Below are positions 1,801 through 11,337 of a stretch of DNA of 64,000 nucleotides, one piece after another (the stretch's first letter is position 1; every line of letters begins with the position of its first letter). The stretch is from Aminobacterium mobile DSM 12262 (GTDB lineage Bacteria; Synergistota; Synergistia; Synergistales; Aminobacteriaceae). The stretch lies in the NCBI RefSeq assembly GCF_000526395.1, contig NZ_JAFZ01000002.1:312501-376500 (forward strand). The letters are read 5' to 3'. Below the pieces are notes generated by a model. The model was not told the DNA's origin. It ran no database searches and worked only from the letters and a program-made list of their open reading frames with translations. Position numbers and translations under genes: made by a program.

Positions 1801-1837
1801 ACGGCACGTTCTCGCATTATGAACGTGCCGTTTTCTC
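1801..1837 (+). terminator. Rho-independent terminator after trpB
   Basis: ACGGCACGTTC (1801-1811) pairs with GAACGTGCCGT (1821-1831) and runs into TTTTCT. It overlaps the end of the convergent LysR gene and probably serves trpB. Confidence 0.8.
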
Positions 1838-2740
1838 ATTTATAAAGCGAGAAGAAAGAGTACGAAGCCACGTCATCATATGTTGAAAAAGTCTGCTTCG
1901 ATACTGCTCCGGCAAAGAAATAATACGAAACCATCTTGTTATAATAAGGTCCGTAGCAACCTCTTCCAAACGTCCATCTAATAATTCCTCCTCTACTGCC
2001 ATACGTGAAAGACAGCTCAACCCCATACCAGCCTCTACTGCTCGCTTAATAGCCTCAGTGTGCCCAATCTCTTGTACGTTATGCAAGCGAATGTTTTTAT
2101 GAGTCAACGCTGCTTCAAATGTACTCAAAGTACCAGAACCTCGCTCTCTCAAAATCCATTGTTCATTAGCTATCTCTTTTACAGAAACCACGGGACGAGC
2201 CCCAGCAAAAGAATGGGAAGGCGACGCTATTATCACCAGTTCATCCCGAAGCCATTCTTCTTCATATAAGTCACAGCCGTCTATAGCTCCTTCCACTAGG
2301 CCTATATCCAGAGCCCCCTCTCGAACAAGATTTGCAATTTCTTTAGTATTGCCTACATTTAAAGTCACCTTTACTTGGGGATTTTCCTCGCAGAAAATCT
2401 TCAGCCACGAAGGGAAAAAATAATTTCCTATAGTTGTACTACACCCTATGAAAAGTTCCCCTGTTAAATCTCCTTCTTCACTTTTAGCCATATCCACTAA
2501 TTCTCTAGCTGAAGCAAGAATCTTCTCTGCTTCAGGAAACAGCATCCGCCCACGATCATTTAAAACCAGCCCTCTTCCTACTCGATGAAAAACAGGGCCT
2601 CCTATAATTCTTTCGAATTCTCTTAAAGCCATACTCGCCGCTGATTGACTTATAAAAAGTGTTTTAGCAGCCCTCGTTAAATTTTCATAACGCGCTATTT
2701 GCACAAAAATTTCTAATTGGCGAAATGTCATTATTTCCAT
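1817..2740 (-). CDS. LysR family transcriptional regulator
   Basis: The product has 307 residues, typical for LysR. The N-terminal winged helix-turn-helix is recognisable (MTFRQLEIFVQIARYENLTRAA..LFISQSAASMALREFE). A periplasmic-binding-protein-like effector domain follows from about residue 95. It starts at ATG 2740 behind GAGGT; ATG 2731 is an alternative. It is divergent from the UPF0324 permease gene, sharing a 128-bp intergenic region with an inverted repeat, so it likely controls that permease and itself. In other bacteria UPF0324 (YeiH) genes often sit beside a LysR gene (YeiE); assignment to that subgroup is inferred from context. Confidence 0.9.
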   Translation of the reverse strand: MEIMTFRQLEIFVQIARYENLTRAAKTLFISQSAASMALREFERIIGGPVFHRVGRGLVLNDRGRMLFPEAEKILASARELVDMAKSEEGDLTGELFIGCSTTIGNYFFPSWLKIFCEENPQVKVTLNVGNTKEIANLVREGALDIGLVEGAIDGCDLYEEEWLRDELVIIASPSHSFAGARPVVSVKEIANEQWILRERGSGTLSTFEAALTHKNIRLHNVQEIGHTEAIKRAVEAGMGLSCLSRMAVEEELLDGRLEEVATDLIITRWFRIISLPEQYRSRLFQHMMTWLRTLSSRFINEKTARS

Positions 2741-2764
2741 ACTTAAACCTCATTCATCATTTTT

Positions 2765-2802
2765 ATTGATTGAAATTATCATAATAATAAGCTGGAATCA
2801 AT
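2765..2802. promoter_or_regulatory. Inverted repeat in the LysR/UPF0324 divergent promoter region
   Basis: ATTGATT (2765-2771) and AATCAAT (2796-2802) form a perfect 7-bp inverted repeat with 24 bases between arms. It lies between the two divergent starts. It is a plausible operator for the adjacent LysR protein, but no binding consensus was tested. Confidence 0.35.
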
Positions 2803-2871
2803 AATACAGTCTGGTTATAGTATGTTGCATCTACGTTGGAATTTATCATAATTTAAAGGGGTTATACTTTG

Positions 2872-3810
2872 ATGATAATACTTCAATCTCCATATTTCTG
2901 GATCATAACAAGCTTAGCATTAACTCTCTTAACAAAGTCTCTTGCCATTGCTCTCTGTTTTGGAAGTGCCATTGCTCTTTTATGGGGAAATCCTGCCAAA
3001 AAAGTTACGGGGATGCTGTCAAAATATCTTCTGCAACTTGCTGTTATTCTCTTTGGGTTCGGTTTGCAGCTTAATGTTATATTGAAAGTCGGCTATTCTT
3101 CCATAGGCATTACTTTTTTCAGCATTTCCACAACACTTTTTCTAGGTTGGGTTTTAGGAAAATTATTTAAAGTGGAGCGGAGTGTTTCTATTCTCATCAG
3201 CAGTGGTACGGCTATTTGCGGTGGAAGCGCTATTGCAGCTATGGCTCCTGCTATTGGCGCGTCTCAGGGACAAACCGCTATTGCTATGGCTGTGGTCTTT
3301 TTACTCAACGGAATTGCCCTTCTCGTCTTTCCCCATTTGGGGCACCTTATAGGCCTTAATCAAGCTGACTTCGGGGTGTGGGCCGCATTGGCTATTCATG
3401 ATACAAGCAGCGTAGTAGGGGCAACCGCTATTTACGGAGCAGAGGCTCTGGCTATTGGCACAACTATAAAACTCACACGTGCCCTATGGATATTACCCCT
3501 TTCTTTTTTAGGGGCGAAGCTTAACAAAAGTGATAGCAAGGCAAAGGTGCCGTGGTTCTTATTTGGCTTCCTTCTTGCAGCTCTGATCCGTTCCCTCTTC
3601 CCAGGGATGGAGGACCTATGGCATCTGTTGGCTATAAGCGGTAAAAAGCTTATGGTTACAACTCTCTTTTTTGTTGGAGCCGGTCTCACTAGAGAAGATC
3701 TAAAAAAAATAGGCGGAGGATCATTGCTGAAAGCAATAACATTATGGATTCTTGTTTCCCTTATCTCTCTTACCGTAATAAGACTGGGGCTCATTAAGCT
3801 CCCAGTCTAA
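2872..3810 (+). CDS. UPF0324 family membrane permease (YeiH-like)
   Basis: A strongly hydrophobic protein of about 312 residues with ~9-10 membrane segments. The motif ISSGTAICGGSAIAAMAPAI near residue 110 and the IHDTSSVVGAT segment near residue 180 are characteristic of the conserved membrane family PF03601 (YeiH, a putative anion/sulfonate exporter). ATG 2872 and the in-frame TTG 2869 both follow AAAGGGG. It is divergent from a LysR gene that probably regulates it. The substrate is not experimentally secure in this family; export of an inorganic sulfur anion is a guess. Confidence 0.85.
   Translation: MIILQSPYFWIITSLALTLLTKSLAIALCFGSAIALLWGNPAKKVTGMLSKYLLQLAVILFGFGLQLNVILKVGYSSIGITFFSISTTLFLGWVLGKLFKVERSVSILISSGTAICGGSAIAAMAPAIGASQGQTAIAMAVVFLLNGIALLVFPHLGHLIGLNQADFGVWAALAIHDTSSVVGATAIYGAEALAIGTTIKLTRALWILPLSFLGAKLNKSDSKAKVPWFLFGFLLAALIRSLFPGMEDLWHLLAISGKKLMVTTLFFVGAGLTREDLKKIGGGSLLKAITLWILVSLISLTVIRLGLIKLPV
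3781..3808 (+). terminator. Hairpin at the end of the UPF0324 gene
   Basis: AGACTGGG (3781-3788) pairs with CCCAGTCT (3801-3808), overlapping the last codons. It lacks a clear T-run, so its terminator role is uncertain. Confidence 0.4.
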
Positions 3811-3936
3811 TGTATGACAACACTCAATACCGGTCTGCAGTAGCTGCTTAAGCTCGACGCCTAGTTTAATTTATGTCAACATTGAATTGAAACCTCTTTT
3901 AAGAAAGAGAAGAGAAGTATATTCCCCCCTTAATAT

Positions 3937-3969
3937 AATAAAAAAAGCCAGGGAAAAATCCCTGGCTTT
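3937..3969 (-). terminator. Terminator of the 25-codon small gene
   Basis: AAAGCCAGGGA (3944-3954) and TCCCTGGCTTT (3959-3969) form a perfect 11-bp stem with a 4-base loop. The plus-strand A-run at 3937-3943 gives a U-run on the minus transcript. It lies 22 bases past the small ORF stop. Confidence 0.85.
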
Positions 3970-3991
3970 AAATATCACTTTAAACAAAACC

Positions 3992-4069
3992 CTACGCTTC
4001 TACCGAACCGTCCGACATAGAAAGGAAAAATACTACCGCCAAACTTGCCAAAATTAAAAATAAGGACAT
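3992..4069 (-). CDS. Small hydrophobic membrane peptide, 25 aa, function unknown
   Basis: A 25-codon ORF starts at ATG 4069 behind GAGGTGA at a 5-base spacing, an excellent ribosome site. The peptide begins MSLFLILASLAVVFFL, one membrane-spanning stretch, and ends with the acidic polar tail SMSDGSVEA. A near-consensus promoter (TTGACA-17-TAAAAT, 4130-4158) lies ~60 bases upstream and a strong terminator follows at 3937-3969, so it forms a complete one-gene unit. I do not recognise the peptide. It could be a small accessory subunit of a transporter, a stress peptide or a type I toxin-like peptide; no antisense RNA promoter was seen. Confidence 0.75.
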   Translation of the reverse strand: MSLFLILASLAVVFFLSMSDGSVEA

Positions 4070-4129
4070 TACAATCACCTCTTGTATCCCACTCAAAACC
4101 TTTATACCCTATCAAACAAGTATAGTAAA

Positions 4130-4158
4130 ATTTTACTCCCGATGAGCAAACATGTCAA
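4130..4158 (-). promoter_or_regulatory. Sigma-70 promoter of the small membrane-peptide gene
   Basis: On the minus strand TTGACA (4158-4153) is followed by a 17-base spacer and TAAAAT (4135-4130), a near-perfect promoter. Transcription would start near 4123, leaving a ~53-base leader. The rest of the 3811-4568 gap holds only this unit and the nhaC promoter. Confidence 0.8.
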
Positions 4159-4474
4159 TAGTGTTTGCTAAATAAAGTACAAATTATTGATATTTTATTT
4201 TAAAATTTATTACAATATTGGTCAACTTTTTATCTAACAATAATACTATACATTTATAAAATTCTACTGGGGTTTCCAAAGGTCCCTCTGTCATAGAACC
4301 TTTTTAACATGCATGTGTGTCAGAATATCTCCCACTAAAAATACAGTCCTATGAGTCTCCTTACATAGCGGAACCAATCATGTCCTTACTAATAGTGCCG
4401 ATCATTATTGCTCTTTCTTCTTTTATCCTCGCGTTTATTAAAAATTTTTTCAAAGCATATTTTCACGAATCTTA

Positions 4475-4504
4475 TTGACATATTATATATCTAGACACTA
4501 TGAT
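4475..4504 (+). promoter_or_regulatory. Sigma-70 promoter of the nhaC-type gene
   Basis: TTGACA (4475-4480), an 18-base spacer and TATGAT (4499-4504, 5/6 match) lie 65 bases before the antiporter start. Confidence 0.65.
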
Positions 4505-4568: not shown

Positions 4569-6026
4569 ATGACTCAAAAATCAAAAGAAGTCAAAGAAAA
4601 ACAACTCGCTCCACTTGGTCTATCGTTAGGCACATTTGCCCTTTGCGCATTCGTCATTGGTTTTTCCATTATGAAACTAGGCGTTGATGCTCATATTCCC
4701 ATGGTCATTGCCGCCACGATCTGTGCTGCCGTAGCTATGTTTTTCCTCGGGAAAACATGGCAAGATGTAGAAAACGGCATTGTGAATGGCATACAATTAG
4801 CGCTTATACCTATTATTATCCTTATGCTTGTTGGCCTTCTTATAGGAAGCTGGATTGCTTCGGGAACAGTTCCTGCTCTTATCTATTATGGATTAAAATT
4901 ACTATCACCTAGATACTTTCTTGCTGCAACCTTGCTTATTTGTTCTATTGTTGCTGTTTCAACCGGAACATCCTGGACTACCGCAGGAACAGTAGGAATC
5001 GCCCTCATGGGGGTAGGCGGGGCGCTTGGTATCCCCAGCCCCATGACAGCCGGAGCCATTATTTCTGGGTCTTATTTTGGAGATAAAATGTCGCCTCTTT
5101 CTGATACGACGAATCTAGCCCCAGCAGTGGCTGGCGGTGAACTTTTTGACCACATTCGAGCCATGGTCTGGACCACAGCTCCTACATACATCATAGCTCT
5201 TATTATTTATATCGTTATTGGCCTTCGTTTTAGTGGAGATACAGGAAACTTAGAGGATATAGCTATCATCTCTAATACAATGATTCAGACATATAAAATC
5301 AATATTATTACGTTAATCCCGCCTATTTTTATTATAGTAAGCGCTTGGAAAAAGTGGCCCGCTATCCCCTCTCTTATGATTGGAATTTTTCTCGCTTGTC
5401 TCACAGCCTTCTTCATGCAGGGACAAGGAATATCAGACCTTATTTCCATCGTCCATTATGGATATGAATCTGAAACTGGAGTCAAGGCTGTTGATGATCT
5501 GTTAACTCGAGGCGGACTTGACAGCATGATGTGGACCATTTCTCTCATCGTTTGCGCTCTTTCATTTGGAGGCATTATGGAAAGCTGCGGATTTCTCGAA
5601 AGCATCCTCTCCCATCTCAGCAAATATCTCAAAAGCGTACACTCTCTTGTGGGAATCACTCTCATTTCCAGTTACCTCAGCAACTTCTTTCTTGGCGATC
5701 AATTCCTCGGCATTATCGTTCCGGGAAGGACTTTCAAACCCGCTTATGAAGCGATGGGACTTGCTCCTCGTATGCTTTCAAGAACTTTGGAGGATTGCGG
5801 CACTATCTCTTCCCCTCTCATCCCCTGGACAGCTTGTGGAGCCTTCATGAGCAATGTGCTCGGGGTAGGATCTTTCACTTTTATGCCCTACGCCTTCTTC
5901 AACTGGCTAAATCCTATCGTAGCTTTCCTTATGACATTTGCTGGCATAGGTATTTTCTGGAGAAAAGCAGACGGTACCATTACACAGGATAAAACTCAGT
6001 CTGTAGCAGCACGTCAAGAGGCTTAG
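4569..6026 (+). CDS. nhaC: NhaC family Na+/H+ antiporter
   Basis: The product has 485 residues with ~11-12 membrane segments. Family-typical blocks include STGTSWTTAGTVGIALMGVGGALGIP, the polar segment SGSYFGDKMSPLSDTTNLAPAV, and SRTLEDCGTISSPLIPWTACGAFM near the C-terminus. NhaC proteins exchange Na+ (some also malate/lactate or ornithine-type solutes) for H+ at the inner membrane. The ATG follows AGGAGGGGG. It is alone in its unit, with its own promoter and a hairpin at 6056-6079. In an amino-acid fermenter it could expel Na+ taken in by Na+-coupled symporters; that role is inference. Confidence 0.9.
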   Translation: MTQKSKEVKEKQLAPLGLSLGTFALCAFVIGFSIMKLGVDAHIPMVIAATICAAVAMFFLGKTWQDVENGIVNGIQLALIPIIILMLVGLLIGSWIASGTVPALIYYGLKLLSPRYFLAATLLICSIVAVSTGTSWTTAGTVGIALMGVGGALGIPSPMTAGAIISGSYFGDKMSPLSDTTNLAPAVAGGELFDHIRAMVWTTAPTYIIALIIYIVIGLRFSGDTGNLEDIAIISNTMIQTYKINIITLIPPIFIIVSAWKKWPAIPSLMIGIFLACLTAFFMQGQGISDLISIVHYGYESETGVKAVDDLLTRGGLDSMMWTISLIVCALSFGGIMESCGFLESILSHLSKYLKSVHSLVGITLISSYLSNFFLGDQFLGIIVPGRTFKPAYEAMGLAPRMLSRTLEDCGTISSPLIPWTACGAFMSNVLGVGSFTFMPYAFFNWLNPIVAFLMTFAGIGIFWRKADGTITQDKTQSVAARQEA

Positions 6027-6055: not shown

Positions 6056-6079
6056 GGAAGGGGTTTTATAACCCCTTCC
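6056..6079. terminator. Hairpin between convergent nhaC and YeeE-family genes
   Basis: GGAAGGGG (6056-6063) pairs with CCCCTTCC (6072-6079). It lies between two convergent genes and overlaps the end of the minus-strand gene. The T-run is weak. Confidence 0.55.
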
Positions 6080-6596
6080 TCTCTATGTATCGGAAAAAAA
6101 TCAAAACAAGGGCTACAAATATACCGATAATAATCCAGTGACTTGTACCTAGAATCTGGGGAATTGTTATTTTCCCCAAATCACCCCAGACGAGAATCGT
6201 CCTTTGCAAAAAAGGGTACGCTTCAGCATACAGAGCTGCACCTGATAACATTCCTAAAATTCCCCAAATAGCATCAAGTCGCCCTTCTCCAATAGCCCCT
6301 AGAGACGTGCCAGGACAATATCCCAGCAGAGCCCATCCTATTCCGAATAAAATTCCTCCGGGCAGCAAAGCCCCCAAAACAGTAGGCTTAATAGATAGCT
6401 TAACTATGTCAAGGTCAAATAAAAAATAAGTCCCAATCATACCCACAGTAATAGTAGAGAGCATAAACTTCAAAATGGTAAAATCCTTCAGCTTCAAGGC
6501 ACCTAATTGTCTGTCATAACGAACAGTTTCAGATCGCTGAAGCAATATGCCAAAAATAAAACCCGTCAGCAACCCCAAAACAAGCTCTGTTTTCAC
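6066..6596 (-). CDS. YeeE/YedE family transporter subunit, C-terminal-half type
   Basis: A 176-residue membrane protein with ~5 hydrophobic segments. It carries the family motif LLGYCPGTSLGAIGEGRLDA near residue 95, with a cysteine thought to contact the transported sulfur or selenium species. It starts at GTG 6596, and that GTGA overlaps the stop of the upstream partner gene, so the two are translationally coupled. YeeE/YedE proteins (PF04143) occur as one long or two short proteins. They transport thiosulfate in characterised cases, and YedE has been linked to selenium use by comparative genomics. The partner gene appears to encode selenocysteine. Confidence 0.85.
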   Translation of the reverse strand: MKTELVLGLLTGFIFGILLQRSETVRYDRQLGALKLKDFTILKFMLSTITVGMIGTYFLFDLDIVKLSIKPTVLGALLPGGILFGIGWALLGYCPGTSLGAIGEGRLDAIWGILGMLSGAALYAEAYPFLQRTILVWGDLGKITIPQILGTSHWIIIGIFVALVLIFFRYIERKGL

Positions 6597-7093
6597 AACC
6601 TGTCACCTTCCCCATATAATAAACGAGCAACAAGAATTCCTGCTCCAAAGAAAAGGGCTAGGGCAACATATCCGCTAACAGCTAACTGAAGCGTACCGCT
6701 CAGTCCGTGACCACTCGGTCAGCCATCTGCGAGTCGCGCTCCAAACATGGCTATAATACCTCCTACAAAAGCGGTAACAGCACGGCGTAACGAGCTTTTG
6801 CCGAAACGATCTCGCCATGTAATGGGGACCCATTGCACTCTATACGTTTTAGTAAAAAGAGAGCTTACAAGAGAACCAAGGAAGATACCTATAACAAACA
6901 TAAATTGCCAGTCTATTTGGGGGATTTCTTTCATAAAATATGGCATTTGGGCTACTTTCTCAGGGCTAAAAATCTTCTCCACAAAACCGGCAGATCTTAC
7001 AAAAGAAGTCGATGCTCCAAAATACTTTCCAGTAAACCATGTGGATAGGACAGAGAGCGCTCCTGCCAAACTTCCAGCTAAATAAGGATTCAT
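6593..7093 (-). CDS. YeeE/YedE family transporter subunit with in-frame UGA (candidate selenoprotein)
   Basis: Read conventionally the frame stops at TGA 6721-6719 after GARLADG. The same frame continues for 41 codons (PSGHGLSGTLQLAVSGY...) to a TGA at 6595-6593 overlapping the partner GTG start. Family members carry Cys at the UGA position in a motif like GGCTSGHGISG, so UGA replaces the conserved cysteine, as expected for selenocysteine. With ATG 7093 (SD AGGGG) the protein is 166 residues, Sec at residue 125; ATG 7117 behind AAGGGGGG adds 8 residues. Two to four membrane segments are visible. A nonsense mutation is the alternative; the intact downstream frame and SECIS-like hairpin argue against it. 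Confidence 0.75.
6685..6721 (-). promoter_or_regulatory. Candidate bacterial SECIS element after UGA
   Basis: After UGA (6721-6719) come 14 bases and then ACUGAGC (6704-6698), loop GGUAC (6697-6693), and GCUUCAGU (6692-6685). The stem has 7 bp with one bulged U. The apical loop starts with GG, 21 bases past the UGA. Bacterial SECIS elements are known to have a short stem, a G at the loop start and a UGA-to-loop distance of roughly 16-37 bases, so this fits. Confidence 0.6.
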
Positions 7094-7150
7094 CGGCATT
7101 CCCCTACGATTATACATATATAGCCCCCCTTCTTTTTCTATGTCGTCTAT

Positions 7151-11182: not shown

Positions 11183-11204
11183 ACATATATATTCCCGCGA
11201 GAAG

Positions 11205-11312
11205 AAAGGATCCCGAGCTTGATAGCCTGCATTCTATAGAGAACATGGCTTCAAGCCTATAGGGCGTAGCGGGAAACTGCTGCGCCTCCCGCGTTTGGAA
11301 AGGAATCCCTTA
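11205..11312 (+). promoter_or_regulatory. Moco/Tuco-type riboswitch (molybdenum or tungsten cofactor RNA)
   Basis: A compact ~105-base fold precedes the aldehyde oxidoreductase gene. GGATCC (11209-11214) pairs with GGAATCC (11302-11308, one bulge) as closing stem. GCC...CTATAG...GGCT-TCA-AGCC-TATAG...GGC forms a nested arm, and GCGGGA (11269-11274)/TCCCGC (11287-11292) a second. The GCGCCTCCCG near the 3' side resembles the conserved end of the Moco RNA motif. Genes for W/Mo enzymes are established targets of this RNA class. Identification is by eye from remembered consensus plus context. Confidence 0.55.
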
Positions 11313-11337
11313 CTATAAACTAAGGAGGGAGAACTAT

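Follow-up and report, generated by a model that had tools for sequence, protein, structure and literature searches.

An orphan microgene convergent with yeiH in Aminobacterium and its predicted single-span membrane peptide

Introduction

Very small bacterial membrane proteins with a single span are a kind already known. Annotation usually passes over genes so short, and ordinary blast searches do not see them. Some of the proteins work beside larger complexes, as KdpF pairs with the Kdp pump and CydX with cytochrome bd. AcrZ is described as sitting against the transporter AcrB (PMC7267776). YohP, a 27-residue E. coli membrane protein, is reported to act on the bilayer (PMC12719787) and has been tied to starvation and stationary phase (PMC12719787, PMC7549839), and IbsC (19 aa), ShoB (26 aa) and DinQ are short, hydrophobic, single-span type I toxins (PMC8309996, PMC3567139). 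Our literature search returned no study of small ORFs for this phylum.

Here we describe a microgene in a 64-kb window, that is, the whole stretch of Aminobacterium mobile DNA analysed (64,000 nucleotides, to which all positions refer). Like AcrZ, KdpF and CydX, its predicted product is very short, with one hydrophobic helix and a tiny polar tail. Unlike them, it has no sequence match in Pfam, NCBIfam or PDB, its candidate partner is YeiH, and its gene is convergent to the transporter gene instead of sharing an operon with it. The abstract of a Salmonella study presents YeiE-YeiH as a sulfite-resistance pair (PMC12880088), and in the window, too, a lysR gene adjoins yeiH; that abstract mentions no microprotein, whereas the window has an apparently genus-confined microgene.

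Results

A complete transcription unit in the gap between yeiH and nhaC

The initial annotation had listed a promoter, a GAGGTGA ribosome site, a 25-codon ORF and a terminator in this gap, and all four are present on the minus strand where it had placed them. The whole unit, from promoter through leader, ribosome site and ORF to terminator, spans 4158-3944. The promoter (4130-4158) agrees with the consensus at 11 of 12 positions (−35 TTGACA at 4158-4153, a 17-nt spacer, −10 TAAAAT at 4135-4130). If transcription begins near 4123, a start placed from the −10 element, the 5′ leader (4070-4123) would be about 54 nt long. It contains the ribosome binding site AAGAGGTGA (4075-4083; GAGGTGA core at 4081-4075), 5 nt upstream of the ATG. 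The hydrophobic ORF MSLFLILASLAVVFFLSMSDGSVEA (3992-4069) has its ATG at 4069 and its stop, TAG, at 3994-3992; 22 bases past the TAG begins the hairpin of an intrinsic terminator (3936-3969), whose stem of 11 bp with a 4-nt loop (3969-3944) is followed by a T-rich tail. All of these features are on the minus strand.

Two further features overlap the promoter and leader. An inverted repeat, AGCAAACA-N9-TGTTTGCT (4145-4169, no strand assigned), has perfect 8-bp arms, is centred on the −35 element and occurs as a single exact copy in the whole genome. It is tentatively a possible operator, and it is absent from both orthologous promoters described below. Within the leader, at 4075-4112, the ribosome-site region is repeated imperfectly in tandem (GGGTATAAAGGT and GGGATACAAGAGGT), which makes the leader about 20 nt longer than those of the orthologues (about 54 nt versus 34-35 nt).

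We scanned the window for the full package, defined as promoter, SD, hydrophobic ORF of 15-50 aa and terminator. It occurred exactly once in 64 kb, at the microgene, and in none of 60 dinucleotide shuffles of the window and none of 600 of the gap. The promoter match by itself is weak evidence, with six promoter-type matches found in the window versus 4.3 expected.

Orthologues at the same position in two congeners

A blast-type search with the single sequence against 40 related genomes returned nothing beyond the window's own genome. The orthologues were recovered because the syntenic gap was read directly. Two congeners (G001 and G002) each carry a 26-codon hydrophobic ORF located 3′ of yeiH, in the opposite direction, after AAGAGGTG (L023:1366, plus strand, and L024:2557, minus strand). 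The encoded peptides, MSLVIVVTSFMVMLFLGLALGHPEKM and MSMLLVLTSFLVMILLSMMVGQAQKL, have 36 and 40% identity with the peptide of the window. The ribosome-site sequence AAGAGGTG, with its AGAGGTG site, is unchanged in all three genomes. One orthologue has the promoter TTGACA-17-TAAAGT and the other TTGACA-17-TATGGT, and both have a terminator at the same position as the window's, with different stem sequences. The G001 hairpin is a bidirectional terminator. In the window and G002 the hairpins are not followed by a good T run on the yeiH strand, and yeiH transcripts may therefore continue through the unit there as antisense RNA. The initial description of the locus, a 25-residue membrane peptide encoded by an orphan transcription unit, thus holds up: its own promoter and terminator are kept in all three genomes, and the substitutions are of codon type.

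A genus pattern composed after all three genomes had been viewed (TTGACA-17-TANNNT, 20-50 bases, AGAGGTG, 4-7 bases, ATGTC) matched at a single site in every one of the three congeneric genomes; across the 185 other genomes of the phylum it had no match, and a reversed-pattern control gave none either. Since the pattern was built from the three, the informative part of this result is its uniqueness. A profile of the three peptides recovers them at E values of 1e-12 to 1e-14, which is circular because they built it, and it found nothing convincing in the 185 other genomes. Weak profile matches elsewhere in the phylum (E 0.02-10), most of them inside long frames, were taken as chance; those at L063, L064, L065, L073, L075, L079, L086 and L088 sit in sequence that is coding-like or unrelated and lacks the microgene architecture. 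The microgene therefore looks restricted to the genus, where support for the peptide family comes from three genomes, although a fast-evolving helix of 25 residues could escape detection at greater distance.

A small hydrophobic peptide outside described families

The three peptides (25-26 aa) share one layout: an uncharged N-terminal side, a hydrophobic stretch of 15-17 residues and a short polar tail. Their peak Kyte-Doolittle mean over 15 residues is 2.67-2.82, and a single membrane span is predicted at about residues 3-18 of the window peptide. In all three genus genomes the frame is conserved and its product has the size and hydrophobicity of a small membrane protein; no further case was found elsewhere in the phylum. 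In the three-sequence alignment the hydrophobic core is conserved and the polar tail is variable. S9, V12, L16 and G21 are invariant, which carries little weight with three sequences.

The family is new, with no Pfam, NCBIfam, PHROGs, PADLOC, Rfam or PDB entry above threshold. The best NCBIfam score was 14.1 bits (cut-off 27.5), Pfam had no match to the peptide, PHROGs gave weak matches alone, and searches of PADLOC, PDB chains and phages gave no useful match. For the unit, Rfam gave no family at threshold, known antitoxin RNA families included.

Selection acts on the reading frame

Conservation of the frame in close relatives, including its dN/dS, had been proposed as the check on this gene, and the frame is intact in both congeners. 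Differences at codon positions 1/2/3 number 16/6/17, 14/7/14 and 13/1/20 in the three pairs, with the second position avoided. Of the six frames, only the coding frame is high-scoring and stop-free in all three pairs. Both results indicate that the peptide is under selection. Protein conservation also exceeds that obtained when the same substitutions are placed at random (P ~0.0002, ~0.001 and <1 in 20000), under a null that keeps the base changes and treats positions as independent. Apart from the promoter, the ribosome site and the shape of the hairpin, the RNA shows poor conservation across the three genomes, and no common fold was found in them beyond the terminator. We conclude that the microgene is very probably protein-coding.

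The constraint is real and looser than that on yeiH, since the microgene dN (0.36-0.68, with dS 1.9 or saturated) exceeds the yeiH dN (0.15-0.20). As judged from these substitutions, it may amount to little beyond 'one hydrophobic helix'.

yeiH is the constant neighbour

The unit had been introduced as lying in the gap before nhaC. That geometry is right, but transcription runs towards yeiH and away from nhaC, and the implied tie to nhaC is unsupported: no nhaC match at E ≤ 1e-60 was found in either congener. We rejected nhaC linkage on this ground, with yeiH as the constant neighbour. The gene beyond the microgene differs among the three: nhaC in the window, one resembling RidA in G001 and one resembling an ADP-ribosylglycohydrolase in G002 (the last two named by eye). 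The nhaC-type antiporter gene itself (4569-6026, plus strand), unmatched in the congeners, has its closest relative in the search, 63% identical, in another family (G033), which suggests gain or loss.

On the other side, the order trpB - lysR - yeiH - microgene is identical in all three genus genomes. yeiH (2869-3810, plus strand; PF03601, putative sulfate exporter family) lies outside the unit and is convergent with it, and its congeneric counterparts are 73-77% identical to it. A lysR gene is divergent from yeiH, and the two together occupy 1817-3810.

A first genome scan for named yeiH loci returned none; a second, with alignment, returned 80, the nearest of which are Synergistaceae MAGs. 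Among the eleven yeiH loci read outside the genus (the nearest eight and three earlier ones), none had a convincing downstream microgene. Microgene and yeiH thus occur together in three of three congeners, and the microgene is absent beside yeiH in the other genera read. The link between the microgene and the yeiH block may be shared inheritance alone.

Discussion

The hydrophobic make-up of the peptide, its steady-looking expression signals and its want of catalytic potential point to a microprotein that makes lateral contacts or acts on the bilayer. We tentatively put first, as plausible though short of probable, a role as accessory to, or regulator of, some larger membrane protein, by analogy with described microproteins. 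The wider description, an orphan gene restricted to the genus and encoding a single-span inner-membrane microprotein that pairs with a larger membrane protein, we judge to be evenly poised. A sigma70-type promoter and a strong ribosome site would supply the peptide at a substantial basal level; it would enter the cytoplasmic membrane as a single helix; and the helix would pack sideways on a larger membrane protein, tuning how stable or how active that protein is, on the pattern of AcrZ, KdpF or CydX. No other membrane protein is constantly adjacent, which makes YeiH the first candidate partner. That YeiH is in fact the partner is unlikely. The link is one of neighbourhood, which common descent also explains, trpB-lysR-yeiH-microgene being a block inherited as one. 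A more specific version, in which the peptide is a dedicated, genus-specific microsubunit of a YeiH-type (PF03601) exporter and yeiH read-through is antisense to its own regulator, has a small chance of being correct.

The main competitor is a stress-type peptide that would act on the lipid bilayer, lowering membrane potential or fluidity and slowing metabolism with no single protein partner. The window peptide resembles YohP in its near-equal length, its single span and its being a stand-alone product, a likeness of description. Its length, composition and loose constraint would suit a role in which hydrophobicity counts for more than particular side chains, for which YohP, at 27 aa, is a precedent (PMC12719787), and the inverted repeat over the window's −35 could be a repressor site. 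That putative operator is not conserved in the orthologues, however, and a promoter so near the consensus, together with a strong ribosome site, points to steady expression, unlike the link of YohP to starvation and stationary phase. The invariant S9, V12, L16 and G21 also speak against this reading, though three sequences say little. We regard action on the bilayer as rather unlikely and favour the accessory role over it.

A type I toxin of the IbsC, ShoB, DinQ or Fst type, restrained by an antisense RNA, would account for the length range and single-span hydrophobic make-up of the peptide, both typical of such toxins, and yeiH, being convergent, would by read-through yield an RNA antisense to the full length of the unit. 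In contrast to these systems, the microgene has no detected antisense RNA gene or complementary RNA: none of the three genomes showed an antisense promoter within the unit, and we found no complementary stretch of at least 13 nt in the surrounding kilobases, no complementary match above chance genome-wide and no antitoxin RNA family at Rfam thresholds. It is also single copy, the orthologue leaders are short, and the ribosome site is predicted to be open in the window and variably paired in the other two genomes. A toxin is thus distinctly unlikely. Of the two functions suggested initially, a transporter accessory peptide is still a candidate, whereas a toxin-like peptide is less favoured for want of an antisense promoter or complementary RNA.

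The unit could instead be a small regulatory RNA with a secondary ORF, or a dual-function RNA, in which the terminator hairpin and leader would be the active parts. Its length (150-190 nt), its strong promoter and terminator and its convergence with yeiH would fit such an RNA, but the substitutions track codons, conservation is poor outside the signals, the terminator is the only shared fold and Rfam gives no match at threshold, making this very unlikely. An ORF present by chance within a short, unrelated transcript, conceivable when 25 codons are few and the genomes only three, is contradicted by in-frame conservation, the uniqueness of the package and the genus-only pattern, and is highly improbable.

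The microgene is a clean case of synteny finding orthologues overlooked by blast. With it, well-supported membrane microproteins that have their own transcription unit reach into a phylum for which no small-ORF work was found. If the accessory peptide does bind YeiH, it would offer a handle on a poorly understood, sulfite-related exporter family; an exporter microsubunit, if true, would be the first for the PF03601 transporters.

Other features of the window

The gap before nhaC holds a second small hydrophobic ORF (4317-4478, plus strand; 32 aa from the ATG at 4380) with a weak ribosome site, for which (4380-4478) we found no relatives and no family match. Farther along are two adjacent small membrane-protein genes on the minus strand (6066-6596 and 6719-7117) that by eye resemble a split YeeE/YedE-type transporter; in G002, too, a similar gene follows. 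A molybdenum/tungsten cofactor riboswitch (RF01055, 77.8 bits) lies at 11199-11321 on the plus strand.
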